Below are positions 36,367-60,796 of a stretch of DNA of 64,000 nt, one piece after another. The translations under genes were made by a program, and so were the position numbers. The stretch is from positions 62,001-126,000 of IMG/VR virus record IMGVR_UViG_3300044653_000098. One strand, given 5' to 3'. Within the stretch, counting starts at the first letter, position 1. Every line of letters begins with the position of its first letter. The stretch comes from a virus. The notes beneath the pieces were generated by a model, which was not told where the DNA came from, did no database searches, and saw only the letters and a list, made by a program, of their open reading frames with translations.

Positions 36367-37440
36367 ATGGCAGGTAAGACCAAGCAGGACGGTGCTGAGG
36401 TTGCCGACCCGCTGGCTGCGTTCATGGCCAAGGTCAACAAGGAACACGGTGAGGGGTCCATGCTGACCCTGAATGACAGCGCCATCGAGGTCGAGCGCAT
36501 CACCACCGGCTCGATCGGCCTGGATGACGCGCTCGGTGGCGGACTGCCCCGCGGCCGGATCGTGGAGATCTACGGCCCGGAGAGCTGCGGGAAGACGACC
36601 GTGGCCCTGCAGGCGGCCTACCGGGTGCAGCAGGCTGGCGGGCGGGTGTTCTTTGTCGACGCCGAGTATGCGCTGGACCCGGACCTGTGCCGGGGGATCG
36701 GGATCGACACCGACCAGCTGTATTTCCTTCAGCCTGACACCGGGGAGCAGGGGCTGAACGTCACCCAGGACGCGATTGAGTGCGGGCTGTTCGACCTGAT
36801 CATCGTGGACTCGGTCGCGGCCCTGGTGCCCAAGGCGGAGATCCAGGGGGAGATCGGGGACTCGTTCGTGGGGCTTCAGGCCCGGCTTATGTCACAGGCC
36901 ATGCGAAAGCTGGTCGGGGCGTTCCCGGGCCCAGGTGAGCCCGGTCGCCGCGCGGTCGTCATTTTCATCAACCAGCTGCGCATGAAGATCGGTGTGCAGT
37001 TCGGCAGCCCGGAGGACACGCCTGGCGGCAAGGCGCTGAAGTATTACTCCTCGGTCCGGCTCGACGTCCGGCGCATCGAGACCCTTGGCGGCCACGCCGC
37101 TGCCTACGGCAACAAGCTGAGGATCAAGGTCACCAAGAACAAGGTCGCGCCGCCGTTCAAGACGGCTGAGGTGGACCTGCTGTTCGGCCGCGGGATCAGC
37201 CGTGAGGGCGAGCTGGTCGACCTGGGTGTGGAGCGGGGTGTCATCCGCAAGTCCGGCTCCTGGTACATCTACGGGGATCTCCAGATCGGGCAGGGCAAGG
37301 CCAACGCCGTCGACTGGCTTGCTGCTAACCCGGACATCGCTGGGGAGATCGACGTCCAGATCCGGGCGCTGCTGGCCAGTAGCGCTCCGGCCCCCGTCCC
37401 GGTGGTGGCTGAGGTGGGGAATCCGTTCGCCACCACCTGA
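36367..37440 (+). CDS. recA: RecA recombinase
   Basis: A 357-residue RecA with N-terminal [13 protein letters not shown], Walker [10 protein letters not shown] (residues ~71-79), Walker [11 protein letters not shown], and the L2-region [14 protein letters not shown]. It catalyses strand exchange and could induce SOS-type cleavage. Length matches bacterial RecA. The C-terminus lacks the acidic tail of bacterial RecA and ends [12 protein letters not shown] precedes the ATG. It lies in an SSB-ruvC-recA run. Confidence 0.95.
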
Positions 37441-38935: not shown

Positions 38936-39862
38936 ATGATTGACACCCTGGAGATAGAGAACTACCAGTCGCTGCGGAAGGTCCGGCTGCGCCTTGGCCG
39001 GTTCACCGTTATCACCGGGCCGACCGGCTCGGGCAAGACCGCGATCTTCCGGGCCGCCCGGCATCTGGTCTTCAACTCCCGCGGGGACTCCTACATCACC
39101 CGCGGGCAGAAGAGCTGCAAGGTGATCGCCAGCGTCCAGGAGGAAGGCTGGTCGGCCGGGATCGAGCGCGGCAAGACCAGCTGCTACCGGATCTCCAAGC
39201 TCGCAGGTGAGCCCGAGACGGCAACCTTCACCAAGCTCGCCGGGGGCGTCCCTGACGCGGTTACCGGGTTGCTGCGGCTGGGCAAGCTGAACTTTGCCTC
39301 CCAGTTCGACGGCCCGTTCCTGCTGGAGGAGTCGGCCGGCGAGGTCGCGCGGGTGCTCGGCGCGCTCACCAACGTCACCGTGGTCTTCGAGGCCGCCCGC
39401 GAGGCGACCCGGCGCAAGCAGAGGCTGGGCGACCAGCTGAAGGACCGCCAGGCAGAGCTGGCCCGGCTCCAGGAGGAGGCGCAGGGCTTCGCTGGCCTCC
39501 CGGGCCGCCTGCAGGCTGTCCAGGCGGCTGAGGCCGCTCAGGAGCGTCTGGAGGGTACCCAGGCCAGGGGGCAGCGCCTGCAGCAGCTTCTGGCGCAGCG
39601 CGCGGCCGCTCACGAAGCGCTCCAGCGAGCGGCCGCCGCGGTGCGGCCGGTGCCAGATCTTGATAAAGCTGAGGCCGCGTACTCACGCTGGAGGCGTCTG
39701 GCGGACCTACTTACTGAGCGCGAATCGCTGCGGGTGCGGTACATGGGAGCCGACTCCGACGTGGCGCTTGCTACCGAGCGGATCCTCGGCCTGGAGAGAG
39801 AACACCACGAGATGCTCACGCAGGCCGGGGTCTGCCCGGTGTGCGGGCAGGCGGTCGGGTAG
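38936..39862 (+). CDS. Rad50/SbcC N-terminal half (split SMC-like ATPase)
   Basis: A 308-residue protein. It begins with the SMC-type ATPase start (LEIENYQSLRKVRL) and Walker A GPTGSGKT (residues ~29-36), then a coiled coil (residues ~160-290). It ends at CPVCGQAVG, the CxxC of the Rad50 zinc hook. The second ATPase half is absent here and appears as a separate gene at 44920-45591. With the Mre11-type nuclease (40971) it would form an SbcCD complex that trims DNA ends. Confidence 0.8.
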   Translation: MIDTLEIENYQSLRKVRLRLGRFTVITGPTGSGKTAIFRAARHLVFNSRGDSYITRGQKSCKVIASVQEEGWSAGIERGKTSCYRISKLAGEPETATFTKLAGGVPDAVTGLLRLGKLNFASQFDGPFLLEESAGEVARVLGALTNVTVVFEAAREATRRKQRLGDQLKDRQAELARLQEEAQGFAGLPGRLQAVQAAEAAQERLEGTQARGQRLQQLLAQRAAAHEALQRAAAAVRPVPDLDKAEAAYSRWRRLADLLTERESLRVRYMGADSDVALATERILGLEREHHEMLTQAGVCPVCGQAVG

Positions 39863-39898
39863 GGTCGATTGGCCGGGTGTGCCTAGCCGGGAGGATCC

Positions 39899-40963
39899 GT
39901 GAGCGCAGAGGGCCAGGACCGCAGCAACTGGCAGCGTGTCGGGCCCTGGACCGGCCTCGGGTTCGGATTCTGCAAGGCCACCGAGAGCACCAACTACGTC
40001 GACCCGACCTTCGCCTCGAACTGGGCGAACATGCGCAGCGAGGGTGTGCCCCGCGGCGCCTACCATTTCTTCCACCCTTCCGTGGACGCGGCCGCGCAGG
40101 CTGAGTTCTTCGTCGCCCGCGTGCGCGACGAGGGGCTGGCCGACGGGGACATGCTCGTCTCCGATACCGAGATCACCGTGGGCACCGACGGCACGCTCCG
40201 GATGAGCCCGCACGCTGCCCGCCGCTCGGCCCTGTTCGACACCGACGAGGACAGCCGGCTTGTGCCGCTGGCCACCGACACCGGGGCCATCCCGCTCACG
40301 GCGGACGCAGCGGCGTTCCCCGGCTCGGTCAAGACGTTCCTGGACAGGGTGCACGAGCTGGCCCCGCACAGCCCGGTGCTGATCTACACCAACCTGTCGG
40401 TGGGGCGCCAGCTGGCCAGCTGCTCCGGCTACCTGCTGTGGATCGCCTGGCCAGAGGACACCCCGCCGCCGGACGTGGCCCCGTGGAAGAGCTGGAAGTT
40501 CTGGCAGTGGTCGTGGAGCGGAGGGTTCGATAACTGCGACCGGGACGCCTACAACGGCACGGTCGCTGAGCTGCACGACTGGCTGGGCAAATACAGGCGG
40601 GCGGATCCTGCCCCTGCGCCAAAGCCGGCGCCTGCTGTTCACCTGATGGAGGAAGACGTGCCGGTACTCAACACCGGGATCAACGCCCAGACGGAAATCT
40701 CGGTCCAGAAGGGCCAGGCCAAGGCCATCCAGTTCATCAACGACTGCGAGGGAGCTGGCGACCCGGCGCCCCATCTGCGCGTCGCGATCCTGTCCGAGGA
40801 GCACGGCTGGAGCCAGATCGAGGGCGCGCAGGAGGGCACGTTCGTGCTGAAGCCCTCGGGCGCCACCCAGGTCAACTTCACGGCCGGCGACGTCGTAGGG
40901 GTCAGCGTGAGCCGGTACGCCCAGGGCGCGCAGGTGCAGGTGGCGTACGCGCTTTTGACGTAG
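39899..40963 (+). CDS. GH25 muramidase endolysin
   Basis: A 354-residue protein. The N-terminal ~220 residues are a glycosyl hydrolase 25 (N-acetylmuramidase) domain: DRSNWQ near the start, GFCKATES, YHFFHP, the catalytic DTE in VSDTEI, and FWQWSWSGG. A Pro/Ala linker (ADPAPAPKPAPA) leads to a ~100-residue C-terminal domain, probably wall-binding. No signal peptide, so a holin is needed. GTG start. It cleaves peptidoglycan at lysis and is the best single sign that this is a phage. Confidence 0.85.
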   Translation: MSAEGQDRSNWQRVGPWTGLGFGFCKATESTNYVDPTFASNWANMRSEGVPRGAYHFFHPSVDAAAQAEFFVARVRDEGLADGDMLVSDTEITVGTDGTLRMSPHAARRSALFDTDEDSRLVPLATDTGAIPLTADAAAFPGSVKTFLDRVHELAPHSPVLIYTNLSVGRQLASCSGYLLWIAWPEDTPPPDVAPWKSWKFWQWSWSGGFDNCDRDAYNGTVAELHDWLGKYRRADPAPAPKPAPAVHLMEEDVPVLNTGINAQTEISVQKGQAKAIQFINDCEGAGDPAPHLRVAILSEEHGWSQIEGAQEGTFVLKPSGATQVNFTAGDVVGVSVSRYAQGAQVQVAYALLT

Positions 40964-40970
40964 TAGAGGT

Positions 40971-41999
40971 GTGGCCAAATACCTCATCTTCGGTGACGTC
41001 CATCTCGGGCCGACGCCGAGCAGCTGCACCGGCACCTACGTAGATGATCTGTTCGATCTGCTGGAGCAGTGCATCTACCTAGCGCGTTCCCGGAACGTGG
41101 CTGCCGTGGTGATCGCCGGGGATCTGTTCCACTCGAAGGCACCGACGCGCACCAGCCACGCGCTGGTGACCCGGCTGATCAAGCTGCTGCGGCGGTTCGG
41201 GGTCACGGTCTGGTTCGTGCCCGGCAACCACGACATGCAGCACGACCGGATCGAGTCACTCGATGAGACTCAGCCTGCCGGGGAACTCCTGGCCTCCGGC
41301 GTGGTCAAGCTGCTGGACGGCTGGGACGACGAGTACAAGCACCTTTACGGCGTGCCCTGGCAGCAGCTCTGGGAAGACGAGATCGTCTTTGGCGCGCTGG
41401 CGGACTACCGGTCTCTGCACGAGACCCGGCCGCCGGAGCATTCTCTGGTCGTGACCCATGCCCCGCTGTACCCGCCTGGCCTGGAGCTGGCATACGAGTT
41501 CTACCCGCCTGGGAGATGGGCTTACGCCATGGGCCCGGGCCAGCACAGCTGCTACTACGGGCATGTGCACGAGCGCGCGGGCATCTGGCAGGTCCAGCCG
41601 CCCGACCTTCGTCCCGGGCACGATGTTGTCTATGCCGGGGATCCTCCGGGTGCAAGCGTTGTCACCTTCTGCAACCCCGGCGCCCTGTCCCGCGGCAGCC
41701 TGCACGAGCACAACCTGACCCGGATGCCCGCGGTCGCGATCTGGGACTCCGCCGACGGCCAGTTCACCGAGATCACCCTGAATGCCAAGCCGCCGGAGGA
41801 GGTCTTCCGGCTCCAGGAGAACCGCCAGACCACCGACATGACCGGCCGGCTGGAGGAGTTCCTGGTCTCGGTCGGCAGCACCCAGCTGGAAGTGATGAGC
41901 GTGGAATCCGTGGCGGCGCATGTCCGCGGCCTCGGATTGTCAGAGGCCGACACTACTTTGGCCATAGAACTATTGATGGAGGCTGCCAATGTCCGCTGA
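40971..41999 (+). CDS. sbcD: Mre11/SbcD-type nuclease
   Basis: A 342-residue calcineurin-fold phosphoesterase. The metal-binding motifs appear in order: GDVHLG, AGDLFHSK, PGNHDM, VTHAPL, YYGHVHERAG. This is the nuclease partner of Rad50/SbcC; it opens hairpins and trims ends. Encoded between the two Rad50 halves. GTG start after GTAGTAGAGGT. Confidence 0.9.
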   Translation: MAKYLIFGDVHLGPTPSSCTGTYVDDLFDLLEQCIYLARSRNVAAVVIAGDLFHSKAPTRTSHALVTRLIKLLRRFGVTVWFVPGNHDMQHDRIESLDETQPAGELLASGVVKLLDGWDDEYKHLYGVPWQQLWEDEIVFGALADYRSLHETRPPEHSLVVTHAPLYPPGLELAYEFYPPGRWAYAMGPGQHSCYYGHVHERAGIWQVQPPDLRPGHDVVYAGDPPGASVVTFCNPGALSRGSLHEHNLTRMPAVAIWDSADGQFTEITLNAKPPEEVFRLQENRQTTDMTGRLEEFLVSVGSTQLEVMSVESVAAHVRGLGLSEADTTLAIELLMEAANVR

Positions 42000-42558
42000 C
42001 GCCAGGACCGCGGTGCTGTTCGACCTGGATTCGACGCTGCGCAACTCCCGCCAGCGCCACCACCTGTCCCCGGTCCGTCTGGCCAACGGCCAGCCTCCGG
42101 ATAACGGGGGCCTGACCCCTCGGGACTGGCACGATTATGCGATGGCGGGAATCACTGACGTGCCTATGATGGGCCCGATCACCGCGCTGCGGCTGTTCTG
42201 GCCACACCATCAGATCCACATCGTCTCCGGCAGCAACGAGTCAGCCCGCGGAAACACCCTGCAGTGGCTGGACCGGCATGTCGGCCTGAACTGGATCGAC
42301 GGCGTCCACCTTCGCGCCGACGACGACTTCACCGAGAACGGTCCGTACAAGGTCGCCCACGTCCTCGCGCTGCGCGAGCAGGGGATCGAGACCGTGCTGT
42401 TCTTCGAGGACTGGGCGCCCGCCGCGCAGCATATCGAGGCTGTGGGCCTGGTGCCGGTCGTCTGCGTGAACCCCTGCTACCCGTGCAAGACGTGCGGCGT
42501 CGACCCGCTGGCGGATGCGCTGGCCGGGCAGATCGACAACCGTGGCGGGGGGCTGTGA
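41989..42558 (+). CDS. HAD-superfamily phosphatase
   Basis: A 189-residue protein with the HAD nucleophile motif FDLDSTL near residue 12, a motif II-like HIVSGSNES, and FFEDW as the late acidic motif. Related phage enzymes are the 3'-phosphatase domain of polynucleotide kinase and small nucleotidases. A cysteine group (CYPCKTC) lies near the C-terminus. Substrate unknown; repair of 3'-phosphate ends of DNA or RNA is one option given the SbcD neighbour. Confidence 0.7.
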   Translation: MSADARTAVLFDLDSTLRNSRQRHHLSPVRLANGQPPDNGGLTPRDWHDYAMAGITDVPMMGPITALRLFWPHHQIHIVSGSNESARGNTLQWLDRHVGLNWIDGVHLRADDDFTENGPYKVAHVLALREQGIETVLFFEDWAPAAQHIEAVGLVPVVCVNPCYPCKTCGVDPLADALAGQIDNRGGGL

Positions 42559-43397
42559 GCGTCCTCGCCGGCGCAGAGGAGCGTGCACTCAGGGTCAGCT
42601 GGAGCCTGATGCGCGTGAACTTCGAGTGCAAGCAGAAGCGCCATCTCAAGCAGACCACCAAGAAACCTACCAACATGGACATCCGGAACTTCTTCCCCGG
42701 AACCGTGGTGGACATCTGCATGCGCCGCTGGCTGGAGCTGGACGACCCCCCGGCCGGCGGCATGCAGGCCATGCTGGATGAGGTGCTGGAGTTCGCTGAG
42801 ACCAACGCCCGCGAGACAGGCGATGGGATCGTTCAGTGGCGCGACCTGCACGATAAAAAGCGCGTCCGGGCGGACTGCTGGGAGCTGCTCGGCCGGCTGG
42901 AGCCGATCCTGCACCGGTATGCGCTGTCCGTCGACTACTCCCCCGCGGTGCGGTTCAAAGAGCCGTTCATCCTGCCGTACCTGGACGGCACTCCGCAGCA
43001 GATCTGGCTCGTGGGGGAGATGGACCTGTTCACCCGCACCCAGCCAGTGCCTGACCTGCGCGTCTGGGACCTGAAGAACACCAAGAACGCCCAGTACTGG
43101 CGCAAGACCGTCGGCCAGCTGCTGTTCTATGACCTCGCGGTGTGGGCACAGCACAAGCAGTGGACCGTCGAGTGCGGCCTGATCCAGCCCATGTGCCCTG
43201 AGCAGGTGCTGTCGTTCCAGTTCACCGACCAGAACCGGCGTGAGCTGATGATGCACCTCGCTGCCTTCTGCCGGGATGTCTGGATCAAGGACGTCACCCC
43301 AAAAGCCGGGACTGAGGGCTGCTCGTACTGCGAGATGCGCACCGCCTGCGTCCGGTATGCGGGCAACCGCGGCCGCGTCGCGTGGCCCGCGGCGTAA
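42555..43397 (+). CDS. Cas4/RecB-like PD-(D/E)XK nuclease
   Basis: A 280-residue protein. The catalytic core reads GEMDLF, then VWDLKNTKN (the D-x-K motif), then QLLFYDLAVW. The C-terminus has CSYCEMRTAC, and with an early cysteine this could hold an iron-sulfur cluster as in Cas4/AddB-type nucleases. It probably works with RecA and SbcCD in recombination. GTG start overlapping the upstream stop. Confidence 0.8.
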   Translation: MSVLAGAEERALRVSWSLMRVNFECKQKRHLKQTTKKPTNMDIRNFFPGTVVDICMRRWLELDDPPAGGMQAMLDEVLEFAETNARETGDGIVQWRDLHDKKRVRADCWELLGRLEPILHRYALSVDYSPAVRFKEPFILPYLDGTPQQIWLVGEMDLFTRTQPVPDLRVWDLKNTKNAQYWRKTVGQLLFYDLAVWAQHKQWTVECGLIQPMCPEQVLSFQFTDQNRRELMMHLAAFCRDVWIKDVTPKAGTEGCSYCEMRTACVRYAGNRGRVAWPAA

Positions 43398-43404
43398 TAG
43401 AGCC

Positions 43405-43659
43405 ATGGACGATCTCGAACAGCGGCTGGCCGGCGTGCGCGCCCAGGCTGAGCAGGCGCGTCAGCGCCAGGCGCGGGCGGAAGCTGAGCGCCACCAGGCC
43501 CAGGGCTCCCTGGCTGCCGCAGACCAGACGCTCCGGGACGAGTTCCCTGAGCTGGTGAGCCAGAATCCGGAGAGCCTGCTGGCCGCGCTCCGCCAGCAGG
43601 CCGAGGCCGAAGTCAGCAACGTACTGACGGCCCTGGCGGCCGCGGAGGGAGCGTCATGA
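43405..43659 (+). CDS. Short coiled-coil protein
   Basis: An 84-residue protein that is almost entirely coiled coil (LAGVRAQAEQARQRQARAEAE). It lies between the nuclease and clamp genes and between the two Rad50 halves. It could be a remnant or separate piece of the Rad50 coil, but nothing in its sequence proves that. Confidence 0.5.
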   Translation: MDDLEQRLAGVRAQAEQARQRQARAEAERHQAQGSLAAADQTLRDEFPELVSQNPESLLAALRQQAEAEVSNVLTALAAAEGAS

Positions 43660-44912
43660 CGGCAATCAGTGAAGTGCTCGGGGCGCCGGAAGACAGCCCG
43701 TTCGCGGCAGCGACACCGCCGGTCTCGGCCAGCCACCAGGAGTTCAGCTTCACCTGCCCCCGGTTCCAGCTGGCCCTCATGGCCACCCGCGCCGGGAACG
43801 TGGTGCCTGCCCGCGAGGGCCACCAGATGGTTCTCAACAACTTCGCCATCCAGGTCACGGCTGATCCGCCCCGGCTGGAGGTCACCGGCACCGACCTGGA
43901 GCTGCGCGTCATCGCCGCTACCCCCGCAGTGCAGGTGACCCGCTCGGCCGACCAGGACTCGCTGCCGCTGCTCATGCTGCCGGCCAAGCGCCTGCAGGCG
44001 ATCCTGTCCGAGGCGCCCGATGGCGACGTAACGGTCAGCGTCAAGGGGGACAAGGCTGTCATCACCGCCGGGTCGGTGAGCTGGGAGCTGCAGGTGCCTT
44101 CGGATGGCTCGGACTACCCGCGCCCGCCCGCCCTGGACGAGGTGGACTGGCAGGAGACCGCGCGGGTGCCGCTGCTGTCGGCGTTGCGCACGGTCCGGCA
44201 CGCGGTCAGCAAGTCCGGCACTAAGCCGAACCTCTCCCAGGTCGACATCCGCTCCCGCGACACCGACGGCGTGCCGTGCATGACCGCGGCCGATGGCACC
44301 CGGTTTGCGCAGATCCCGCTGCCCGGGTTCCCGGTCGAGATGCGGATCCCCGCTGCGGGCTCCCCGGCCGCCACCGACGAGCTGATCCGCCTCCTGATAG
44401 CTTCCGAGGCGGACACCGTGCGGGTGGGAAAGCAGGGGAAAAGCTTGTTCTTCGGTGTGGATTCGACGGTTTTCCGGGTTTTTCAGCTGCCGCTGGAGTA
44501 CCCGGACATCTGGAAGCTGCTGCTGGAGCCCACCCTGGCCAACACCGACCTGCTCACGGTCAGCCGCGACGAGCTGAAGCGCGCGATCAGCCGGGTGCGG
44601 ATCAACGCCGACGACGGCACGCACGCCATCGGCCTGCAGCTGTGCGCCGGCCGGCTGACCGTCTTCACCCGCGACACCCGCGGCAATCAGGCTGAGCAGA
44701 CGATCGAGGCAACCTGGGATCAGCCGGAGCGCTCGCTGCTGGTCAACCACCTGTTCCTGGCCGAGATGCTGGGCGTCCACCCCAGCGGCGAGTGCATCTT
44801 CCGGCTCGGCAGGGACTCCGGGAAAAAGCGCTCGGTGGTGCTGCTCCGCGACGATGCGAGCGGGATCACCGGCATCATCAACCAGATGTCCGGGTCGCTG
44901 GCCGGGGCGTAG
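43656..44912 (+). CDS. dnaN: DNA polymerase sliding clamp (beta subunit)
   Basis: A 418-residue protein with three-domain beta-clamp layout. Domain 1 has VLNNFAIQV and ELRVIAATPAVQV, the middle domain has DGTRFAQIPLP, and the C-terminal part has DELKRAISRVRI and LLVNHLFLAEMLG. It encircles DNA as a processivity factor. Together with delta, delta' and DnaX genes here, the element carries its own clamp and loader. Confidence 0.8.
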   Translation: MTAISEVLGAPEDSPFAAATPPVSASHQEFSFTCPRFQLALMATRAGNVVPAREGHQMVLNNFAIQVTADPPRLEVTGTDLELRVIAATPAVQVTRSADQDSLPLLMLPAKRLQAILSEAPDGDVTVSVKGDKAVITAGSVSWELQVPSDGSDYPRPPALDEVDWQETARVPLLSALRTVRHAVSKSGTKPNLSQVDIRSRDTDGVPCMTAADGTRFAQIPLPGFPVEMRIPAAGSPAATDELIRLLIASEADTVRVGKQGKSLFFGVDSTVFRVFQLPLEYPDIWKLLLEPTLANTDLLTVSRDELKRAISRVRINADDGTHAIGLQLCAGRLTVFTRDTRGNQAEQTIEATWDQPERSLLVNHLFLAEMLGVHPSGECIFRLGRDSGKKRSVVLLRDDASGITGIINQMSGSLAGA

Positions 44913-44919
44913 CAGGGAC

Positions 44920-45591
44920 ATGAGCACCGAGCTGGCACAGCGGGTCAGGGCGGCACGCAGCCGCACCGACATGGACATCGGCCGCGCCCGCGAGGTGGGC
45001 CGGGCCGGGCAGCTGGCCGAGTCCGCCGTAGCCCGGCTACAGGAGGAGATCGAGCGCCACGAGCGCACGGCGAAGCTGTTCACCACCATTGGCGAGACGC
45101 GCCAGGAGCTGGCCCGCCAGCAGATCGAGGGTCTCGTCACCCGCGGGCTGCAGACCATCTTCGATGAGGATCTGAGCTTCCACCTCGTGCCGTCGGTGCG
45201 GGGGAACAACGCCCAGGTCGACTTCATGATCCGGTCGGTGCACGACGTGCCGCCAGATCCTGAGAGGCAGACCTACGGGCCGGTCCAGGTCGACACCCCG
45301 GTGCTGGAGGCGCGCGGCGGGGGCATGGCTGTGGTTGTGGCCTTCATGCTGCGGCTGGTCGTGCTCCTGCTTACGCCAGGCACCCGCAAGGTGCTGTTCC
45401 TCGATGAGAGCTTCGCTCACGTCTCGCGTGGCTACGAGCCGAGAGTGGCCGAGTTCCTGAGAATGGTGAGCGAGAATGCTGGGGTGCAGATAGTTCTGAT
45501 CACCCACTCTGACGCGTTCTCCGACCTTGCCGACGCCCTCTACCGGCTGGAGCTGGAAGGCGGCGTGACCGTGGTGCGCCAGGAGGGCTAA
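44920..45591 (+). CDS. Rad50/SbcC C-terminal half (split SMC-like ATPase)
   Basis: A 223-residue protein. The N-terminal ~70 residues are coiled coil. The rest is the second ATPase lobe: a signature-like EARGGGMAVVVAFMLRL, Walker B KVLFLDESFAHVS, and the switch ITHSD. It completes the ATPase begun at 38936-39862. AGCAGGGAC precedes the ATG. Confidence 0.8.
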   Translation: MSTELAQRVRAARSRTDMDIGRAREVGRAGQLAESAVARLQEEIERHERTAKLFTTIGETRQELARQQIEGLVTRGLQTIFDEDLSFHLVPSVRGNNAQVDFMIRSVHDVPPDPERQTYGPVQVDTPVLEARGGGMAVVVAFMLRLVVLLLTPGTRKVLFLDESFAHVSRGYEPRVAEFLRMVSENAGVQIVLITHSDAFSDLADALYRLELEGGVTVVRQEG

Positions 45592-46229: not shown

Positions 46230-46417
46230 AAGACCGCAGCAAGATTGTCTACTGCACCATGGACAGCTCTCAGTGGCTGATCCTGATCCCGCCCGCAGGC
46301 TTGGTGTCCCCTCCGGTGATAACCCTGCATCAGTCATTTGTCGGGCCCGTGGAGTTCTACCACGCCTCGGCCTACAACATCCCGGTGCCCGACGACGCTA
46401 AGGCGGCCGCGAAATGA
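46226..46417 (+). CDS. Short unknown protein
   Basis: A 63-residue protein with mixed strands, no motif recognised. ATGA overlaps on both sides couple it to the glycosyltransferase and to the radical SAM gene. Confidence 0.5.
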   Translation: MKDRSKIVYCTMDSSQWLILIPPAGLVSPPVITLHQSFVGPVEFYHASAYNIPVPDDAKAAAK

Positions 46418-49365
46418 CCAGTCCTGCGTCCGTCCAGAGCTGGCTCGACCAGACCGCCTACAAGATGGACCTGAGCTGCCAGTACCTCGGGGATGAGCCG
46501 AACACCCTGAACCGGGACTGGGACTCCGCCACGCTGCGGTGGCTCATGTGCGCGAGCTGGCCCTATGAGCATGCGGCCGGCAACCAGTCGATCCCCTACG
46601 TCGCCAAGGCGGTCACTGATGCTTCCCCGCATTATCTGTGCGACCGGTTCTACCTGCCTGCGACGCCACGCGATATGCGACTTCTGGAGCGCGGGGGCGT
46701 GCCCGTATTCGGTATCGAATCAAAGCACCAGCTCAGTGACTTTGACGTGGTGGGAACCTCTATCTCCTACCTTGTTCTGCTGATGAACTTCGCCAAGATG
46801 CTGACCATGAGCGGGATTCCGCTGCGGTGGCGCGAGCGGGAGGACGACCCCGGCGCCTACCCCATGGTCATCATCGGCGGCCAGGCGTTCAGCGCCCCTG
46901 CTGCGATGGAGCCGATCGCGGATTGCATCTGGCTGGGCGAGGCCGACACCGAGCCCGGCAACGGCGGGATGGCCGCGGTGTGCCGGAGGATCGAGGAGTT
47001 CAAGGCCGACGGCTCCTGGCGGCAGGACCGGATCGGGTGCTACCGCGAGCTGGCGCTGGAGTTCGGGTACCTGCACTTCCCGCGGTTCGTGAAGACGCAC
47101 TACCGGTACGAGGACCGCGGCCTGCCGCAGCCCTCGAAGGTGGTTGCGGGCTATGAGTCCCTGCTGCCGGGCATGACCTTCCCCCGGCGCTCGCGCCGGG
47201 TCCGCGACATGAACGCCATCTCCCCGCTGACCGCCGCGCCGCTGCTGTACTCCGACCCCGCGCTCGGCGCCGGGGACATGGAAGTCGCCCGCGGCTGCCC
47301 GGCGTGGTGCAGCTTCTGCCGGCTGAGCTGGCTGACCAAGCCGTACCGCCAGCGGGACGTCGCCTTGTCCGTCGAGCACGCTGCTCAGTGGCACCGCGCC
47401 ATGGGTGCGGTCGAGCTGAGCCCGTTCGCCCCGGACTTCCCGATGCACACGCAGCGCCAGCTGCTGATCAAGCAGTTGCTGGAGCAGGTCAACGACGAGG
47501 CCGACGCGGTGGCCATGCGCATTGACGACGCCATCGCGGACAAGGGCGTTTACATCCAGCTCCAGGCCCTCGGCGGGATGGACGCGATCACCCTCGGCCT
47601 GGAGGGCAACTCCCAGCGCATGCGTGACCTCGTCGGCAAGGGCACCTCCGACAACGAGGTGATCGAGGCGGTCCGGCAGGGGATCCAGGCTGGCCTGCGC
47701 AAGTTCAAGCTCTTCATGATCACCAACCTGCCCGGCGAGGAGAAGGGCGACGTCCTGCGGATCGTCCGGCTGGGCGAGCAGCTGGCCGCGGTCCGCGACG
47801 AGCTGGGGCAGCCAAACGTCCAGATCCAGTTCAGCTGGACTCCGCTGCTCATCGAGATGGGCACGCCGTTCCAGTGGTTCGCCGTGACCCACGCCGACCA
47901 CACGCTGATCAAGATCGCTGAGTTCTTCCGCGACCTGAAGATCGCCTTCAAGATCGGGACCAAGGCCGAGCCCAACAAGGTGGCATTCTTCCAGCTGTGC
48001 CAGCGAGCCTCCGCCGAGGTGGGCGAGGCGATCGTGGACGTCATGGAGGAGATGGACATCGCCTGCTGGGGTGGTGTGCCCCGCGGCGATCCAGGCAAGC
48101 GCAACGGGATGAAGGACCGGCTGGAGGACGCCCTGATCGCCCACGGCTTCCTCAACGGTTTCGATGACTGCTTTGACGAGCGTCGCCTGCGTGACCTGTT
48201 CGGCGCCGAGTACATCGACACCGGGGTGCCCCGCCGGCTGCTGTGGAGCACCTATCTCCAGATGGTGGAGTTCCTGGAGCAGACGGACGCCGACACCTAC
48301 GACGACCTGCTCGACCCGGCCTACCGCGGCAACGAGTGGGTCGGCCGGTGCGACACCGCCTGCCAGGGCAATTCCTGCGGAGTGTGCTCACGCAGTGACT
48401 TGGAGTTGCGACGGGACTACATCAGTGCTGCGAAGAATGAGCTGACCACCGGCCTAGCGGGGGTCCGGCCGATCGACCAGTCTTCGGTGGTCATGCGCAT
48501 CCGGCTCCGGCTGGTCCGGAGCGAGAAGTACCGCTTCGTCGGCAACGACCACTGGCGGTTCGCGGTCCGGCGCGCGGCCTACCAGGCCGCCTACGCCATG
48601 GCCAACACGCTGCCTTCCGGCTTCTCGATAGCCAAGCGCACCATCCGCTTCGCCAGCGATAGGTTCGGCAGCCAGGGGCTGGCGGGCACCGACTACGTCG
48701 AGTTCGGGATCACCCGCGAGCTGGATGACTGGCAGCTGCACGCGTTCGTTGCCGGGATGTCAGCTCTTCTGGACCGGTGGGTGTCGGTGATCGAGGAGAG
48801 CCGGACCCAGCTGCCCCCGGTGGCCGGGGAGCTGCGCAAGGACGCGGATGTCAGCTTCTGCTCTATGACCCTGGCAGCGAGCCCTGACGTGGCCGCTGCG
48901 CGCCTCGCAGCCTGGGGCCGGGCAGAGACCGTGCCCATGATCCTGCGCCATCCTGGGGTCTACTTCGGGCTCGCCGCCGAGGAGGTCGACGCCCGCGAGT
49001 TCGTGGACGACATGTGGGTGGCTGCCACCGGCAACAAGCTCGAACTCAAGATGTTCACCCGCGGGGAGCCGGGGCCCTACCAGCTGATGTCGACGCTCAT
49101 GGGCAAAAAGAGCTGGATCGAGGCCATGGCTCACCCGGCGTGGCGGCATGACTTCTTCCTGCCTGGCGCGACCGGGCTGGCTGCCATCCAGGGCGACATG
49201 CTGGCGGCCGCCTGCACGGAGTGCGGGCTGCCAGTGCCATACGGCGCCGACGGCCAGCCGTGGCTGCGCGCAGACCTCAGCGACTCCCTCGACATCTGCC
49301 CGCGGTGTCTCGATGAGCGCCATGGCCGGGTGCTCGCGGGCCTGCCCCGCCTCGCGGCCGTATAA
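46414..49365 (+). CDS. B12-binding-type radical SAM protein with C-terminal DUF2344-like domain
   Basis: A 983-residue protein. Residues ~110-185 resemble a B12-binding Rossmann fold (VVGTSISYLVLLMNFAK, VIIGGQAFSAPAAM). Near residue 295, ARGCPAWCSFCR is the radical SAM Cx3Cx2C iron-sulfur motif. Residues ~690-800 (RIRLRLVRSEKYRFVG, ...LPSGFSIAKRTIRFASD) resemble the DUF2344 domain linked to such enzymes in actinobacteria. CTECG and CPRC close the protein, probably a zinc ribbon. It likely performs radical chemistry on RNA, DNA or a sugar; the substrate is unknown. Confidence 0.75.
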   Translation: MTSPASVQSWLDQTAYKMDLSCQYLGDEPNTLNRDWDSATLRWLMCASWPYEHAAGNQSIPYVAKAVTDASPHYLCDRFYLPATPRDMRLLERGGVPVFGIESKHQLSDFDVVGTSISYLVLLMNFAKMLTMSGIPLRWREREDDPGAYPMVIIGGQAFSAPAAMEPIADCIWLGEADTEPGNGGMAAVCRRIEEFKADGSWRQDRIGCYRELALEFGYLHFPRFVKTHYRYEDRGLPQPSKVVAGYESLLPGMTFPRRSRRVRDMNAISPLTAAPLLYSDPALGAGDMEVARGCPAWCSFCRLSWLTKPYRQRDVALSVEHAAQWHRAMGAVELSPFAPDFPMHTQRQLLIKQLLEQVNDEADAVAMRIDDAIADKGVYIQLQALGGMDAITLGLEGNSQRMRDLVGKGTSDNEVIEAVRQGIQAGLRKFKLFMITNLPGEEKGDVLRIVRLGEQLAAVRDELGQPNVQIQFSWTPLLIEMGTPFQWFAVTHADHTLIKIAEFFRDLKIAFKIGTKAEPNKVAFFQLCQRASAEVGEAIVDVMEEMDIACWGGVPRGDPGKRNGMKDRLEDALIAHGFLNGFDDCFDERRLRDLFGAEYIDTGVPRRLLWSTYLQMVEFLEQTDADTYDDLLDPAYRGNEWVGRCDTACQGNSCGVCSRSDLELRRDYISAAKNELTTGLAGVRPIDQSSVVMRIRLRLVRSEKYRFVGNDHWRFAVRRAAYQAAYAMANTLPSGFSIAKRTIRFASDRFGSQGLAGTDYVEFGITRELDDWQLHAFVAGMSALLDRWVSVIEESRTQLPPVAGELRKDADVSFCSMTLAASPDVAAARLAAWGRAETVPMILRHPGVYFGLAAEEVDAREFVDDMWVAATGNKLELKMFTRGEPGPYQLMSTLMGKKSWIEAMAHPAWRHDFFLPGATGLAAIQGDMLAAACTECGLPVPYGADGQPWLRADLSDSLDICPRCLDERHGRVLAGLPRLAAV

Positions 49366-58047: not shown

Positions 58048-58122
58048 CTGGGTATAGCTCAGGTTGGTCAGAGCGCGCGGTCCGGGGCCGCGAGGCCGCT
58101 GGTTCAAATCCAGCTACTCAGA
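58048..58122 (+). tRNA. trnP(cgg): tRNA-Pro (anticodon CGG), C33
   Basis: Acceptor CTGGGTA/TACTCAG, anticodon stem CGCGG/CCGCG with loop TCCGGGG, T-arm GCTGG TTCAAAT CCAGC. C replaces U at position 33. Its 3' end abuts the 3' half of the permuted tRNA. Confidence 0.8.
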
Positions 58123-58124
58123 CC

Positions 58125-58258
58125 GGGGGGAGATGCGGGTTCGAGTCCCGCCCTGTCCGTGAAAACTCTCCGCGGTGGCCGATCTGCAGGCGGCTGGCCG
58201 GCCAGGGCCCTGGTCAGGAGAGGGACAGGTAGTCCAATTGGCAGGACGCCCCCTACAT
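58125..58258 (+). tRNA. Candidate circularly permuted tRNA (3' half before 5' half)
   Basis: The 3' half comes first: GGGGG (58126-58130), a T-arm GCGGG TTCGAGT CCCGC (58135-58151) and acceptor strand CCTGTCC (58152-58158). The 5' half follows at 58223-58258: acceptor GGACAGG (58223-58229), D-arm GTCC/GGAC, and CCCCC (58249-58253). The acceptor strands pair 7/7 and the anticodon-stem strands 5/5. The 64-base link also pairs, CTCTCC (58166-58171) with GGAGAG (58217-58222), extending the acceptor helix. Neither half has another partner nearby. The anticodon cannot be assigned because the loop is broken between the halves. Confidence 0.6.
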
Positions 58259-58382
58259 TTTCTGGTGCGGCTTACCACGATCCGGCTGGGGTTCGGGAGA
58301 AGAACGTCCGGGAGGTCGAGCGCAATACGCGGGCGCAGTTCCGCGCAAACGGCGGCCGGATGCTGTGGGAGCACCAGAACAA

Positions 58383-58454
58383 CGGGATGTCGCGTAAGGG
58401 TTAGCGCGCCTGGTTTGGGACCAGGCAGTCAAGGTTCGAGTCCTTGTATCCCGA
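58383..58454 (+). tRNA. trnP(ugg): tRNA-Pro (anticodon UGG)
   Basis: Acceptor CGGGATG/TATCCCG, anticodon stem CCTGG/CCAGG with loop TTTGGGA, T-arm CAAGG TTCGAGT CCTTG, and CCA encoded at 58455-58457. Canonical U33. Confidence 0.85.
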
Positions 58455-58524
58455 CCAGCGGCCAGGATGTTCACCGTGTCCTGGTGCAGCGGAGGCTCGT
58501 TAGGGAGCACCCAACGGTGACGGC

Positions 58525-58597
58525 GGGTCTGTAGCTCAGACGGGAGAGCGGTCCCCTGAAAAGGGACAGGTGGAGGATTCGATCGCCTCCGGGCCCA
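58525..58597 (+). tRNA. trnF(gaa): tRNA-Phe (anticodon GAA)
   Basis: Acceptor GGGTCTG/CGGGCCC with wobble pairs, anticodon stem GTCCC/GGGAC with loop CTGAAAA, T-arm GAGGA TTCGATC GCCTC with one mismatch. Confidence 0.75.
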
Positions 58598-58615
58598 CGC
58601 TGTAGCAGGTAGCCC

Positions 58616-58687
58616 GCCGCACTAACACAATGGCTAGTGTGTCTGTCTTCCAAGCAGAGAATGCGAGTTCGATTCTCGCGTGCGGCT
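58616..58687 (+). tRNA. trnG(ucc): tRNA-Gly (anticodon UCC)
   Basis: Acceptor GCCGCAC/GTGCGGC, D-stem ACAC/GTGT, anticodon stem TCTGT/GCAGA with loop CTTCCAA, T-arm GCGAG TTCGATT CTCGC. Confidence 0.85.
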
Positions 58688-58792
58688 CGGTGACGAGCAG
58701 AGCTGAAACCTCTGTGATCGCGCAAGTGGCTGGCAGGCCACGGCCGGGCAGGCTCTGGGGGACTGCCATCTCGCAGGGGTGCCCGGTTCTGA

Positions 58793-58865
58793 GTGCCGCT
58801 AGCACAACGGTTACTGCACCTGACTCTTAATCAGGGGGTTCTCGGTTCGAGTCCGAGGCGGCGCA
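58793..58865 (+). tRNA. trnK(cuu): tRNA-Lys (anticodon CUU)
   Basis: Acceptor GTGCCGC/GCGGCGC, anticodon stem CCTGA/TCAGG with loop CTCTTAA, T-arm CTCGG TTCGAGT CCGAG. Confidence 0.85.
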
Positions 58866-58866
58866 C

Positions 58867-58942
58867 GGGCGAGTACGTCCAACTGGCAGAGCGGCCGGCC
58901 TCAAAATCCGCGCGGTTGCGGGTTCGACTCCCGCCTCGCCTA
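58867..58942 (+). tRNA. trnL(caa): tRNA-Leu (anticodon CAA), short variable loop
   Basis: Acceptor GGGCGAG/CTCGCCT, loop CTCAAAA, T-arm GCGGG TTCGACT CCCGC. Anticodon stem has two mismatches. Lacks the long variable arm normal for tRNA-Leu, as does the UAA gene at 57343. Confidence 0.7.
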
Positions 58943-58947
58943 CACGA

Positions 58948-59021
58948 TGGAGCATGGTGGTAATTCGGTATCCCACTGGGCCCTGAACCCAGGGATCCAG
59001 GTTCGAGTCCTGGTGCTCCAG
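58948..59021 (+). tRNA. trnQ(cug): tRNA-Gln (anticodon CUG), C33
   Basis: Acceptor TGGAGCA/TGCTCCA, perfect anticodon stem CTGGG/CCCAG with loop CCCTGAA, T-arm CCAGG TTCGAGT CCTGG. C at position 33. Confidence 0.8.
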
Positions 59022-59120
59022 CTAGTCCTGGCCCGGCTTTCCCTGAATTGACAGGCGACCCCGAAGCGTGACGGCGCATAAGGGGACGGGCACGACGGTG
59101 CGGTCCGGCCGGGACTTCAT

Positions 59121-59192
59121 GCCTCCGTAGCTCAATGGTGGAGCAGTGCCCCCGTAAGGCACAGGCCGCAGGGTCAGTACCTGCCGGAGGCT
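59121..59192 (+). tRNA. trnT(cgu): tRNA-Thr (anticodon CGU), C33
   Basis: Acceptor GCCTCCG/CGGAGGC, anticodon stem GTGCC/GGCAC with loop CCCGTAA, T-arm GCAGG GTCAGTA CCTGC (T-loop departs from TTCRA), CCA encoded at 59193-59195. C33. Confidence 0.8.
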
Positions 59193-59196
59193 CCAT

Positions 59197-59282
59197 GCGC
59201 TCGTGGCGGAATAGGTATACGCGCTAGCCCGAGATGCTAGTGCTCCGCGAGGGGCGTGCGGGTTCGACTCCCGCCGAGCGCA
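59197..59282 (+). tRNA. trnL(gag): tRNA-Leu (anticodon GAG), C33
   Basis: Acceptor GCGCTCG/CGAGCGC, anticodon stem CTAGC/GCTAG with loop CCGAGAT, long variable arm, T-arm GCGGG TTCGACT CCCGC, CCA encoded at 59283-59285. Class II Leu with C33. Confidence 0.8.
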
Positions 59283-59359
59283 CCACGCCGCCGCGCACGG
59301 CTTGCGGCCCGGCTCCTGTAAAGCTGGAGGTCCGGATCGGCACCGGACGGCGGCTCTGC

Positions 59360-59433
59360 TCCGGGATCGGGTTGCCGGCATCCCGACGCGGCTTTGGACC
59401 GCGGTCACGCTGGTTCGAGTCCAGCTCCCGGAA
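59360..59433 (+). tRNA. trnQ(uug): tRNA-Gln (anticodon UUG)
   Basis: Acceptor TCCGGGA/TCCCGGA, anticodon stem CGCGG/CCGCG with loop CTTTGGA, T-arm GCTGG TTCGAGT CCAGC. Confidence 0.85.
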
Positions 59434-59437
59434 CGAT

Positions 59438-59509
59438 GCCTGCCTAGTGATAACGGCAGCACGCGTCCTTGGTAAGGACGTAGACGGAGTTCAATTCTCC
59501 GGGCAGGCT
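59438..59509 (+). tRNA. trnT(ggu): tRNA-Thr (anticodon GGU)
   Basis: Acceptor GCCTGCC/GGCAGGC, anticodon stem CGTCC/GGACG with loop TTGGTAA, T-arm CGGAG TTCAATT CTCCG. Confidence 0.85.
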
Positions 59510-59513
59510 CTGT

Positions 59514-59586
59514 GTGGACGTGGCGAAGCTGGTATCGCATCTGCTTGCCAAGCAGAAGATCGCGGGTTCGATCCCCGTCGTCCACT
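59514..59586 (+). tRNA. trnG(gcc): tRNA-Gly (anticodon GCC)
   Basis: Acceptor GTGGACG/CGTCCAC, anticodon stem TCTGC/GCAGA with loop TTGCCAA, T-arm GCGGG TTCGATC CCCGT. Confidence 0.85.
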
Positions 59587-59683
59587 CTCCGGCTGCGGTG
59601 TTCACCGTGCCAATGCGAAGGGCCCGACAGGTTCGGTAACCCGGATGGATAAGTCTGCTAGGCCAGCAGGCAAACGGTTGAAT

Positions 59684-59767
59684 GTCCCGGTGGCGTAATT
59701 GGTAGCCGCGCACGGCTCAGACCCGTGTGCCTTAACGGGCGTGAGGGTTCGACCCCCTCCTGGGACA
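59684..59767 (+). tRNA. trnL(cag): tRNA-Leu (anticodon CAG)
   Basis: Acceptor GTCCCGG/CTGGGAC, anticodon stem CACGG/CCGTG with loop CTCAGAC, long variable arm, T-arm GAGGG TTCGACC CCCTC. Class II Leu. Confidence 0.85.
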
Positions 59768-59887
59768 CGATCGGAACTCCCTCCCGCCGCGGTTCGCGAA
59801 CGCGGTGATCAGGAGAGCTAAGGGTCTGGCCCCGCGCCCGGCCGGAGGAGTTCACAGTCAATGCGCATGGCAAGCGGGGCGTGACAT

Positions 59888-59961
59888 GGTCTGCGACCAG
59901 CTGGAGGTTGGAGGCGGCCTGCAAAGCCGTCAGCAGCGGGGTTCGATTCCCCGGCGGGCCT
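59888..59961 (+). tRNA. trnC(gca): tRNA-Cys (anticodon GCA)
   Basis: Acceptor GGTCTGC/GCGGGCC with two G-U pairs, D-stem CCA/TGG, anticodon stem GCGGC/GCCGT with loop CTGCAAA, T-arm CGGGG TTCGATT CCCCG. Confidence 0.75.
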
Positions 59962-60102
59962 CTAACAGGCTCCGTCTGCGTGGATTTCGCAGTTCGGGCC
60001 GTTCCCCGGCGGGATGGCATTGGCGGAGGCTGCGGCCGCGCTCAGGAGGGTGCCGAGTGCAATACCCGCGGCGAGAAGGGCTGCTAGAAGTCGGTAGCGC
60101 AT
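59962..60102 (-). CDS. Tiny secreted peptide on the antisense strand of the array
   Basis: A 46-residue frame on the strand opposite to the tRNAs. It begins MRYRLLAALLAAGIALGTLL, a textbook signal peptide with a probable cut after ASANA, and leaves a ~17-residue mature peptide with two cysteines (PNCEIHADGAC). AAAGGTG precedes the ATG. It fills the largest tRNA-free gap in the middle of the array. A secreted or surface peptide is likely if expressed; function unknown. Confidence 0.55.
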   Translation of the reverse strand: MRYRLLAALLAAGIALGTLLSAAAASANAIPPGNGPNCEIHADGAC

Positions 60103-60164
60103 GGTCTTCACCTTTCTGCTGGTAGCTGTCACGGTACGCCTAAGTGATTGTTCTGCACAGGCAT

Positions 60165-60249
60165 GGAGCGGTGGCCGAGCGGCCTATGGCGGTGTCCTGC
60201 TAAGGCACTCACCGGAAACGGTGCGCGGGTTCAAATCCCGCTCGCTCCT
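60165..60249 (+). tRNA. trnS(gcu): tRNA-Ser (anticodon GCU)
   Basis: Acceptor GGAGCGG/TCGCTCC, anticodon stem GTGTC/GGCAC with loop CTGCTAA, long variable arm, T-arm GCGGG TTCAAAT CCCGC. Confidence 0.85.
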
Positions 60250-60252
60250 CTT

Positions 60253-60337: not shown

Positions 60338-60341
60338 CTGA

Positions 60342-60415: not shown

Positions 60416-60416
60416 C

Positions 60417-60488: not shown

Positions 60489-60491
60489 CCA

Positions 60492-60564: not shown

Positions 60565-60569
60565 CGCAA

Positions 60570-60641: not shown

Positions 60642-60642
60642 C

Positions 60643-60713: not shown

Positions 60714-60717
60714 CTTT

Positions 60718-60795: not shown

Positions 60796-60796
60796 C

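Follow-up and report, generated by a model that had tools for sequence, protein, structure and literature searches.

A Rad50/SbcC very probably cut at its zinc hook into separate genes in a phage, with relatives in other phages and large plasmids

Results

Organization of the split locus

Two genes located in a 64,000-nucleotide stretch of a phage record (IMG/VR record IMGVR_UViG_3300044653_000098, positions 62,001 to 126,000; named "the window" below) very probably encode a genuine Rad50/SbcC that is cut at its hook, i.e. a multi-chain Rad50, made of an N-half, a C-half and perhaps a short coiled-coil protein named S, which would work together with SbcD. The split arrangement looks conserved and functional in this phage as well as in many other phages and large plasmids; it recurs across phages, IMG/VR contigs and megaplasmids, in 87 C-half loci (a redundant set). 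Most work on Rad50 and its SMC cousins concerns single chains folding back on themselves at the apex, whose role is debated. The features of the window, in which the neighboring genes were compared with Pfam and PHROGs, are the following.

36367-37440, + strand: RecA recombinase, 5' of the N-half (PF00154, 4.6e-102)
38936-39862, + strand: Rad50/SbcC N-half, 308 aa; lobe I with Walker A, an arm of three predicted helices, putative zinc hook at the C-terminal end
39017-39040, + strand: Walker A GPTGSGKT, N-half residues 28-35
39833-39844, + strand: putative zinc hook CPVC, N-half residues 300-303, followed by GQAVG and the stop
39899-40963: GH25 lysozyme, between the halves
40971-41999, + strand: SbcD/Mre11 nuclease (Metallophos, 1.6e-12; phrog_100, 1.5e-10)
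41989-42558: HAD/polynucleotide-kinase-like gene, between the halves
42555-43397, + strand: PD-(D/E)XK (Cas4-like) nuclease (PF12705, 1.3e-8)
43405-43659, + strand: S protein, 84 aa, short coiled coil (iterated profile, 6e-16)
43656-44912, + strand: DnaN-type sliding clamp (phrog_947, 1.3e-29), between S and the C-half in this branch
44920-45591, + strand: Rad50/SbcC C-half, 223 aa; helix 2-80, then signature, Walker B and H-loop
45313-45336, + strand: ABC signature region RGGGMAVV, C-half residues 132-139
45391-45411, + strand: Walker B VLFLDES, C-half residues 158-164

The gap between the N-half and the C-half measures 5,057 bases, in agreement with the distance of about 5 kb given in the first-pass annotation, which had also placed an Mre11-type nuclease, a Cas4-like nuclease, a short coiled-coil protein and a clamp between the halves; all of them are found there, together with the GH25 lysozyme that it did not mention. 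The main catalytic motifs of SbcD are present (D-x-H, GDLF, GNHD and GHVH). RecA is also located upstream of the N-half in several relatives, and polymerase and clamp loader genes are also found in the window. In the phage's own 141.7-kb record, phrog_77 (SbcC) matched only the two halves at E <= 0.01, and no further SbcC was found in that record. As for gene starts, GTG at 42555, which overlaps the stop of the preceding gene, was chosen among the in-frame starts of the PD-(D/E)XK nuclease; the listed C-half start at 44854 was rejected in favor of the ATG at 44920, which is located 7 bases past the clamp stop and has a purine-rich stretch ahead of it (judged by eye).

Sequence and predicted structure of the two halves

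The N-half contains a Rad50/SbcC N-terminal lobe with Walker A, whose residues G28, G33 and K34 are invariant across 34 aligned N-halves. C300 and C303 are likewise invariant in this alignment, which does not include the hook-less N-halves found later. As the first-pass annotation had noticed, the gene ends at the CxxC motif, the stop codon following CPVC after only five residues. The N-half matches phrog_16465 (8.2e-32), and its profile matches archaeal Rad50 (5f3w_B, 5.6e-14; 1ii8_A, 3.6e-9) as well as OLD, SMC and RecN chains; the last ~60 profile positions match the Rad50 chains 6zff_A (6.4e-6) and 1l8d_A (4.2e-5), which we take to be zinc-hook fragments. The AF2 model (pTM 0.42) matches Rad50 N-lobes mainly over residues 1-129, a region over which RecF and SMC heads score equal to Rad50 in a fold comparison that barely probed the part beyond residue 145. 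The final predicted helix ends at residue 297 and is followed by 11 residues including the CxxC; a hinge domain as in SMC proteins is not present at this arm tip. We regard the CxxC as a Rad50-type zinc hook, a putative zinc ligand at the arm tip, which is absent from the ends of four N-halves (Magritte, L101, L104 and L105).

The C-half contains the Rad50/SbcC C-terminal lobe with signature, Walker B and H-loop (LITHS, residues 193-197). The earlier description of a second gene that starts in a coiled coil and carries Walker B is thus confirmed by the long predicted helix 2-80 and by VLFLDES. G133 in the signature, and D162 and E163 in Walker B, are invariant among 50 C-halves. The gene matches phrog_15167 (2e-30), and its profile matches chain B of Pyrococcus furiosus Rad50 (3qkr_B, 5.9e-14; 1f2t_B, 1.9e-13), with SMC and ABC transporters among the other matches. 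A joint alignment of the reversed fusions described below with both halves was dropped, as MAFFT put C-halves onto the N-part. In an alignment of C-halves only, ~170 residues per C-half were placed correctly and the last residues, at least 20, were scattered; for this reason the window's own C-half was used for structure prediction. The resulting AF2 model (pLDDT 95.4) matches the Rad50 C-lobe 9a9j_B with a Z score of 14.0.

A full ATP site is found in neither half, and the motifs are complementary, with Walker A in the N-half and signature, Walker B and H-loop in the C-half. By profiles and predicted folds the halves match complementary lobes of P. furiosus Rad50, and the top Foldseek matches of the two half models are chains A and B of a single entry, 9a9j. 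The single-chain order of Rad50/SbcC (N-lobe, arm, hook, arm, C-lobe) is replaced here by two genes, and in place of two equal antiparallel arms there are a predicted C-half helix of residues 2-80 and an N-arm of ~150 residues, which reaches ~350 in relatives. A canonical Rad50 coil would not call for unequal arms.

Fusions are also found in the family. Six plasmids encode Mre11 and the N-half as a single fused protein; the putative partnership with SbcD has genetic indications only, these fusions and the neighboring SbcD gene of the window. Eight records contain both halves as one reversed fusion, with C ahead of N; a scan of genome contigs for the reversed fusion gave 2 loci, and IMG/VR scans with the reversed fusion and with a single N-half gave no match. 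Bacillus phage 0305phi8-36 was not recovered with the Paenibacillus fusion or the C-half as query. Pairwise distances correlate at 0.92 between N and C, 0.93 between C and SbcD, and 0.91 between N and SbcD. As the N-C correlation is no higher than those with SbcD, it shows only joint inheritance of the module, and it was not retained as evidence that N and C are specifically linked.

Conservation and position of the S protein

S was found in 78 of the 87 C-half loci, and it is located between N and C in 60 of the 61 loci containing all three. The short coiled-coil S is therefore a conserved third member, and three chains are possible. Moreover, the C-half helix of ~80 residues could pair with only part of the N-arm, and for this reason S is probably a third chain, located distally on the arm or at the hook end. 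Accordingly, of the earlier proposal of a two-chain Rad50, the two-gene part stands, and the strict count of two chains was amended to perhaps three. It is also conceivable, but rather unlikely, that the two-chain count is right and that S stays outside, as an accessory to either the PD-(D/E)XK nuclease or the clamp whose place in the operon is incidental. In loci with a partial inversion of the module relative to C (L032, L036, L037, L049 and L054), S indeed stays with the nuclease and/or the clamp. Against this, N and C flank S in vB_BboS-125 and its relatives as well as in the Bacillota plasmids, where the PD-(D/E)XK and clamp profiles had no match in the stretch; in Tunturi_5, S comes after N; and in Leaf58, pMPPla107 and pPL1, S precedes the reversed fusion. 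S was not found by profile in FeN3W, A. macleodii, A. antoniana and Achromobacter.

Co-occurrence and conservation of the halves

An N-half accompanies the C-half in 73 of the 87 cases, in the same locus in 63 and elsewhere in the record in 10 more. For the other 14 no N-half was found, 10 of them in searched records of 15-132 kb that are perhaps incomplete and 4 in loci without a record search. In a Jeotgalibacillus plasmid the N-half was found first, and the C-half was then sought and found 74 kb away. These data bear on the possibility that each half serves a machine of its own, the N-half tethering DNA ends with SbcD and the C-half acting with the clamp or with a different ATPase half. Such a division would fit the large distances in Tunturi_5, Magritte and Jeotgalibacillus, the frequent position of the C-half after the clamp, and the 10 searched records in which no N-half was found. 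We consider it improbable, because each half lacks half of the ATP site, both halves are present in most loci or records, and the halves are near neighbors in vB_BboS-125-like contigs and Bacillota plasmids and fused in the eight records mentioned above.

Somewhat less probable still is a phage-borne defense system of the Lamassu LmuB type instead of a recombination enzyme. LmuB models do match the N-halves (L068, 2.3e-15; window, 8.5e-10), and according to the excerpted text of PMC10586767 LmuB resembles Rad50, many members having a hook. LmuB is, on the other hand, a single chain of ~650 aa holding both lobes, and the partner here is an SbcD with its motifs, beside RecA and the clamp and in a window with polymerase and clamp loader.

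The position of the cut was compared among the N-halves. A CxxC is located <=25 residues from the end in 70 of 75 N-half ORFs; in a comparison with other frames, this was the case for 63/65 N-half ORFs, which exceeds chance, as against 15/152 other module genes and 39/1033 of the remaining stop-to-stop frames (>=250 aa) from these loci, a set that includes many non-genes. Decay or an artefact, i.e. an intact sbcC broken by gene insertion or assembly error, would be in line with the interposed lysozyme gene and with Cetobacterium, where the N-half itself is spread over two ORFs, but its probability is negligible, as it is ruled out by the cut site (the same in 42 of 43 cluster representatives having the N-half in the locus), by the catalytic residues retained in the aligned N- and C-halves and by pN/pS values below 1 for N, S and C in each pair having changes (window vs L009: C-half 0.22, S 0.44), and the six-gene order is identical in 18/18 six-gene loci. 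Decay, against which the first-pass annotation had cautioned, thus left no sign, and the single intact gene that it envisaged in relatives was not seen either, no unsplit N-to-C ORF being present in any of the 87 C-half loci (split forms served as the search seeds, so that more distant intact sisters may have been missed). Its reading of one Rad50 encoded by two genes is supported by the complementary motifs and folds, the conserved cut, the co-occurrence, the selection on each piece, and the Mre11 and reversed C-N fusions.

Discussion

A Rad50 in pieces could work as follows. Lobe I and its Walker A would come from the N-half, together with the hook cysteines and the arm leading out to them; the C-half would contribute lobe II, with signature, Walker B and H-loop, and the helix that returns alongside the head. 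Both chains would fold jointly into a single ABC ATPase head. From the family and the neighboring genes we infer ATP-dependent, SbcD-coupled DNA-end processing: two heads would dimerize on ATP and sit on an SbcD/Mre11 dimer, which would process the ends of the phage DNA to serve RecA-type recombination and recombination-dependent replication. The cut would be placed at least cost, as it disrupts neither the head nor the arm bases nor the CxxC.

With Rad50/SbcC and Mre11/SbcD (MR, SbcCD; T4 gp46/gp47) the system shares the head motifs, the arm, the CPxC hook, the SbcD neighbor and the recombination setting. It differs in the chain cut at the hook, the added conserved S, the unequal arms and, in some plasmids of the split family, the reverse-order or Mre11-N-half fusions. 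The P. furiosus Rad50 head (1f2t, 1ii8, 3qkr, 9a9j) likewise consists of N-lobe and C-lobe as separate chains A and B; it is presumably a laboratory construct cut beside the head, whereas the phage cut is natural and located at the hook. Yoshida et al. 2011 (PMC3175470), in the excerpted text, report Mre11-Rad50 fusions encoded by plasmids and by a phage, one P-loop NTPase segment being not observed in Anaerostipes and Bacillus phage 0305phi8-36; a separate C-half, S, the hook cut and the reversed fusion are not described in that excerpt. Other phage enzymes are also assembled from separate chains, such as NrdA of Aeh1, gp43A/43B and T4 topoisomerase (PMC2988022), and pol III alpha and RNA polymerase subunits of jumbo phages (PMC7824862); Rad50/SbcC is not among the split genes named in the excerpts of these two sources. 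Lamassu LmuB resembles the split family as a Rad50-like ATPase with short arms, a zinc hook in many members and a small partner protein (PMC10586767, in excerpt), and differs from it as a single chain with the effector LmuA instead of SbcD. No description of a split or reordered Rad50/SbcC was found in the open-access literature searched, outside of which most subscription journals lie.

Taking these observations on the multi-chain Rad50 together, we tentatively suggest, as a possibility that we favor less than its contrary, an obligate three-chain Rad50, made of N, S and C and open at its apex. S would complete the arm and zinc would hold it, and the arm could come apart at its tip, which might serve as a gate or an assembly switch for DNA; the arm would consist of 47-residue modules, more or fewer of them depending on the phage, and the open apex might have allowed the C-N fusions, the fusion of Mre11 to one half and the replacement of the hook by another terminal module.

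The split also suggests a common function for phrog_16465, phrog_18563 and phrog_15167, annotated as exonuclease, unknown and ATPase, respectively. Nature seems to have performed the cut-apex experiment several times: some variants retain the hook, others have lost it, and in others again the halves are joined at the head instead. Such natural variants would make the roles of the apex, the hook and the arm length testable with small pieces.

Organization of the split Rad50/SbcC locus

The window spans positions 62001-126000 of an IMG/VR virus record of 141,724 bases. Its Rad50/SbcC homolog is encoded in two separate ORFs, named here N-half (Walker A, arm and zinc hook) and C-half (C-lobe):

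38936-39862: N-half ORF, 308 residues, Walker A at residues 28-35, C-terminus ...AGVCPVCGQAVG-stop
44920-45591: C-half ORF, 223 residues, with signature, Walker B and H-loop

As the first-pass annotation had proposed, the first gene ends at the CxxC zinc hook, and the second starts in predicted coiled coil (a single helix, residues 2-80, in its AlphaFold2 model) and carries Walker B in the lobe that follows. The distance of 5 kb proposed between the halves agrees with the measured gap of 5,057 bases, and the four genes placed between them are present, namely a Mre11-type nuclease (SbcD), a Cas4-like PD-(D/E)XK nuclease (PDEXK), a short coiled-coil protein of 84 residues (S) and a DnaN-type clamp, together with a GH25 lysozyme and a HAD-type gene. 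A RecA gene lies upstream of the N-half, and other parts of the window code for a DnaB-like helicase, a DNA polymerase and a clamp loader. When the whole record was searched with phrog_77 (SbcC family; E <= 0.01), all three matches fell within the N-half and the C-half, so no further SbcC is detectable in the record by this model.

The GH25 lysozyme gene (39899-40963) lies directly 3' of the N-half inside the recombination operon, as is also seen by eye in two other loci (L010 and L011). Thirty tRNA genes form a + strand array at 58048-61804, a further single tRNA gene is found at 20320 on the - strand, and a 983-aa ORF (46414-49365) with a CPAWCSFC motif appears radical-SAM-like by eye and has no PHROG match at 1e-5.

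Identity of the two halves

Profiles were built from 50 C-halves (A9) and 34 N-halves (A8). The top matches of A9 were the C-terminal chain of P. furiosus Rad50 (3qkr_B, 5.9e-14; 1ii8_B, 9e-14; 1f2t_B, 1.9e-13), the next-best other family being SMC3 (1.1e-8). A8 matched best the archaeal Rad50 chains 5f3w_B (5.6e-14) and 3aux_A (6.3e-14); an OLD nuclease came next (7.1e-11), over the first 46 profile positions, and P. furiosus Rad50 (3qkr_A, 1.9e-9; 1ii8_A, 3.6e-9) appeared lower down, as did SMC and RecN chains. The last ~60 positions of A8 matched the Rad50 chains 6zff_A (6.4e-6) and 1l8d_A (4.2e-5), which we take to be zinc-hook fragments.

The AlphaFold2 model of the C-half (pLDDT 95.4) was best matched by the Rad50 C-lobe 9a9j_B (Z 14.0, 166 residues, rmsd 3.8). 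That of the N-half (pLDDT 86.0, pTM 0.42) consists of a lobe, helices 147-184, 188-235 and 242-297, and the hook; its residues 1 to ~129 resemble RecF, Rad50 and SMC heads (Z 10-13), with RecF in the top row (Z 13.2), tied with Rad50 9a9j_A (12.7). Foldseek ranked 9a9j_A first for the N-half, and its best matches for the two predicted structures thus come from a single Rad50 entry, 9a9j, as separate chains A and B.

Distribution of split forms

The searches were seeded with split forms. By tblastn against 50,697 phage records, the N-half was matched in 5 records and the C-half in 6: both halves in Magritte, LR745208, vB_BboS-125 (two records) and Tunturi_5, and the C-half alone in Mvi-JY20, whose N-half was identified by reading its ORFs. 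The C-half search of 72,556 plasmids matched 15 records, the 15th being a second P. polymyxa record of length equal to pSC2; among the 14 inspected, N, S and C are close together in 8, and 6 have a single gene in which the C-half precedes the N-half (reversed fusion). With the N-half of B. velezensis p3 as query, 9 plasmids were matched, 8 already known from the C-half and one new (Jeotgalibacillus). The IMG/VR scans gave 72 loci, which partly duplicate phage records (L063, L065) or one another. The C-half loci total 87; with three more, the 90 loci formed 61 clusters at 80% identity and, given this redundancy, cluster-level counts are fairer. Two Escherichia phages, vB_EcoM_IME392 (MH719082) and EP_H11 (OP688485), have ~125-residue matches spanning the Mre11-Rad50 junction of a Paenibacillus fusion.

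The N-half lies within the same locus as the C-half in 63/87 cases. For the other 24 loci, 20 whole records were searched (all but those of L040, L042, L046 and L050), and the N-half was found elsewhere in 10; it was not found in the remaining 10, which are contigs of 15-132 kb, possibly incomplete, one of them (L009) starting inside SbcD.

Position of the cut

A CxxC no more than 25 residues from the C-terminus was found in 63 of the 65 N-half ORFs (including three reversed fusions, L022-L024), against 39/1033 other stop-to-stop frames (>=250 residues) and 15/152 other module genes. Per cluster representative the figure is 42/43, with 3-22 residues following the CxxC; ten N-halves found later in whole records had this end in 7 cases, giving 70/75 overall. 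Both hook cysteines are conserved without exception in A8, an alignment that does not include the hook-less N-halves. In the exceptional Cetobacterium plasmid (L020) the N-half lies in two overlapping ORFs, the second ending CPTCNKEF. Four N-halves have no hook (Magritte, L101, L104 and L105), the CxxC being replaced by another terminal sequence, similar and helix-like in three of them, which is perhaps an alternative apex joint. The Cetobacterium plasmid also has an IscB gene between the C-half and Mre11; a gene predicted to confer lincosamide resistance is close by.

Natural fusions

An SbcD domain is fused to an N-half ending at the hook in plasmids of Geobacillus, Brevibacillus, P. polymyxa, P. 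thiaminolyticus, Aneurinibacillus and Jeotgalibacillus. In the last, the gene 3' of S had no match to the C-half profile; a C-half elsewhere on the plasmid was predicted beforehand, a prediction that could have failed, and the plasmid-wide search found it 74 kb away (1.9e-47). Reversed fusions ending in CxxC were found in FeN3W, Leaf58, pMPPla107, P. silesiensis pPL1, two Alteromonas plasmids, Alteromonas antoniana and Achromobacter anxifer:

Reversed fusions (C-half then N-half Rad50 genes): L022, L023, L024, L095, L096, L127, L128, L129

In Leaf58, PHROG models place the C-half at residues 57-215 and the N-half at 236-515. These Mre11-N and C-N fusions suggest that both lobes belong together and that the chain end corresponds to the apex. 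A Mre11-like ORF lies 3' of the reversed fusion in pMPPla107 (6.6e-8) and pPL1 (1.4e-4), and in others by eye; after several reversed fusions, its catalytic motifs are seemingly lost, also by eye.

A possible third component and gene order

S is a conserved gene: with an iterated profile built from these same loci, one copy was found in 78/87 C-half loci (E 3e-29 to 4e-10). Magritte has S (1.9e-13); in Tunturi_5, a weak match at its S gene (0.013) became 1e-10 with the iterated profile. Records were searched for seven of the nine loci lacking S (all but L042 and L050): S lies elsewhere in two (L044, 1.7e-14; L052, 7.3e-15), the L024 record gave only a weak match at a different place (0.0016), and the profile found none in the whole records of L030, L041, L047 and L022. 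S precedes the reversed fusion in Leaf58 (4e-10), pMPPla107 (7.9e-8) and pPL1 (6e-5); in FeN3W, A. macleodii, A. antoniana and Achromobacter the profile had no match there, and the upstream ORF is S-like by eye only. The sequence of S suggests two helices flanking a G-V/I-T/D-P-E turn. In vB_BboS-125-like contigs S corresponds to phrog_18563, which the S of the window and of L026 do not match.

The order N-S-C on one strand is kept in 60 of the 61 loci having all three genes, the sole deviation being the reversed Leaf58 (S-C-N). An intact Rad50 has its parts in this order too, provided that S corresponds to the distal return arm. All 18 loci with the full set of six genes show the order N, SbcD, PDEXK, S, clamp, C; among them, L007 and L063 represent a single 485-kb genome, and L060 is closely related to L061. 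In L032, L036, L037, L049 and L054 the module is partly inverted relative to C, and N lies outside the fetched stretch.

Selection and arm length

In all pairs of relatives with changes, pN/pS was <1 for N, S and C (maximum 0.62), synonymous sites being saturated in the most distant pairs; between the window and L009 it was 0.22 for the C-half and 0.44 for S. Measured between the profile start and the end of the ORF, the C-half has 199-221 residues in 48/50 representatives (the other two extend to a later stop), S has 74-94 (28 representatives), and the N-half has 305-526 in 34/37, the rest being two partial sequences and one of 735 residues with an intein-like insert. The N-half of L060 (L060:3686-5911) has a ~320-residue insertion inside Walker A, intein-like by eye, which is missing from the N-half of the near relative L061 (L061:4651-5904).

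The first segment of the N-arm is 40 residues long (41 in 1/34), beyond which length varies mostly stepwise. The 22 long N-arms, which are mutually related (L068, L065 and L063 are examples in A8), have a period of 47 residues: among 110 offsets, 47 and 94 gave the top scores (4.5 and 3.3 standard deviations over the all-offset mean); a modular ruler is possible. N-arm length varies and C-half length hardly does, so the two arms do not lengthen in step as those of canonical Rad50 do, and some of the N-arm must pair internally, with S or with another N-half.

Origin and proposed working

In the open-access literature searched, which leaves out most subscription journals, we found no description of a Rad50/SbcC that is split or has its parts reordered. 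Yoshida et al. 2011 (PMC3175470) reported Mre11/Rad50 fusions, two of them without one P-loop segment, perhaps an early glimpse of the split-Rad50 family; unlike here, a separate C-half is not described in the passages concerning them. SbcC and SbcD are called practically universal in jumbo phages in passages of PMC7824862, which describe split polymerases and do not name a split SbcC. The hinge-less SMC proteins without CxxC in the relevant passages of PMC12153180 differ from the hook-cut Rad50, and SbcC is not among the split genes in those of PMC3322345. Splitting of other phage enzymes by mobile endonucleases is documented in part of PMC2988022; in vB_BboS-125, N and S are separated by an AP2-domain gene, a hint to such an origin that is only suggestive.

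Distances of N and C correlate across 36 loci hand-picked from clusters (r 0.92, 0/2000 permutations as high). Because those of N and SbcD (0.91) and of C and SbcD (0.93) correlate equally well in the same loci, this indicates only co-inheritance of the module.

In the Rad50 family, ATP is sandwiched by two heads, SbcD is at the base, and hooks join through zinc. On the present evidence, all of it from comparison or prediction, each Rad50 head here would be an N-C heterodimer; the cut at the hook leaves the catalytic parts intact. Candidate gains from such a cut would be independent expression of the halves, an openable apex, or an arm free to change in length.
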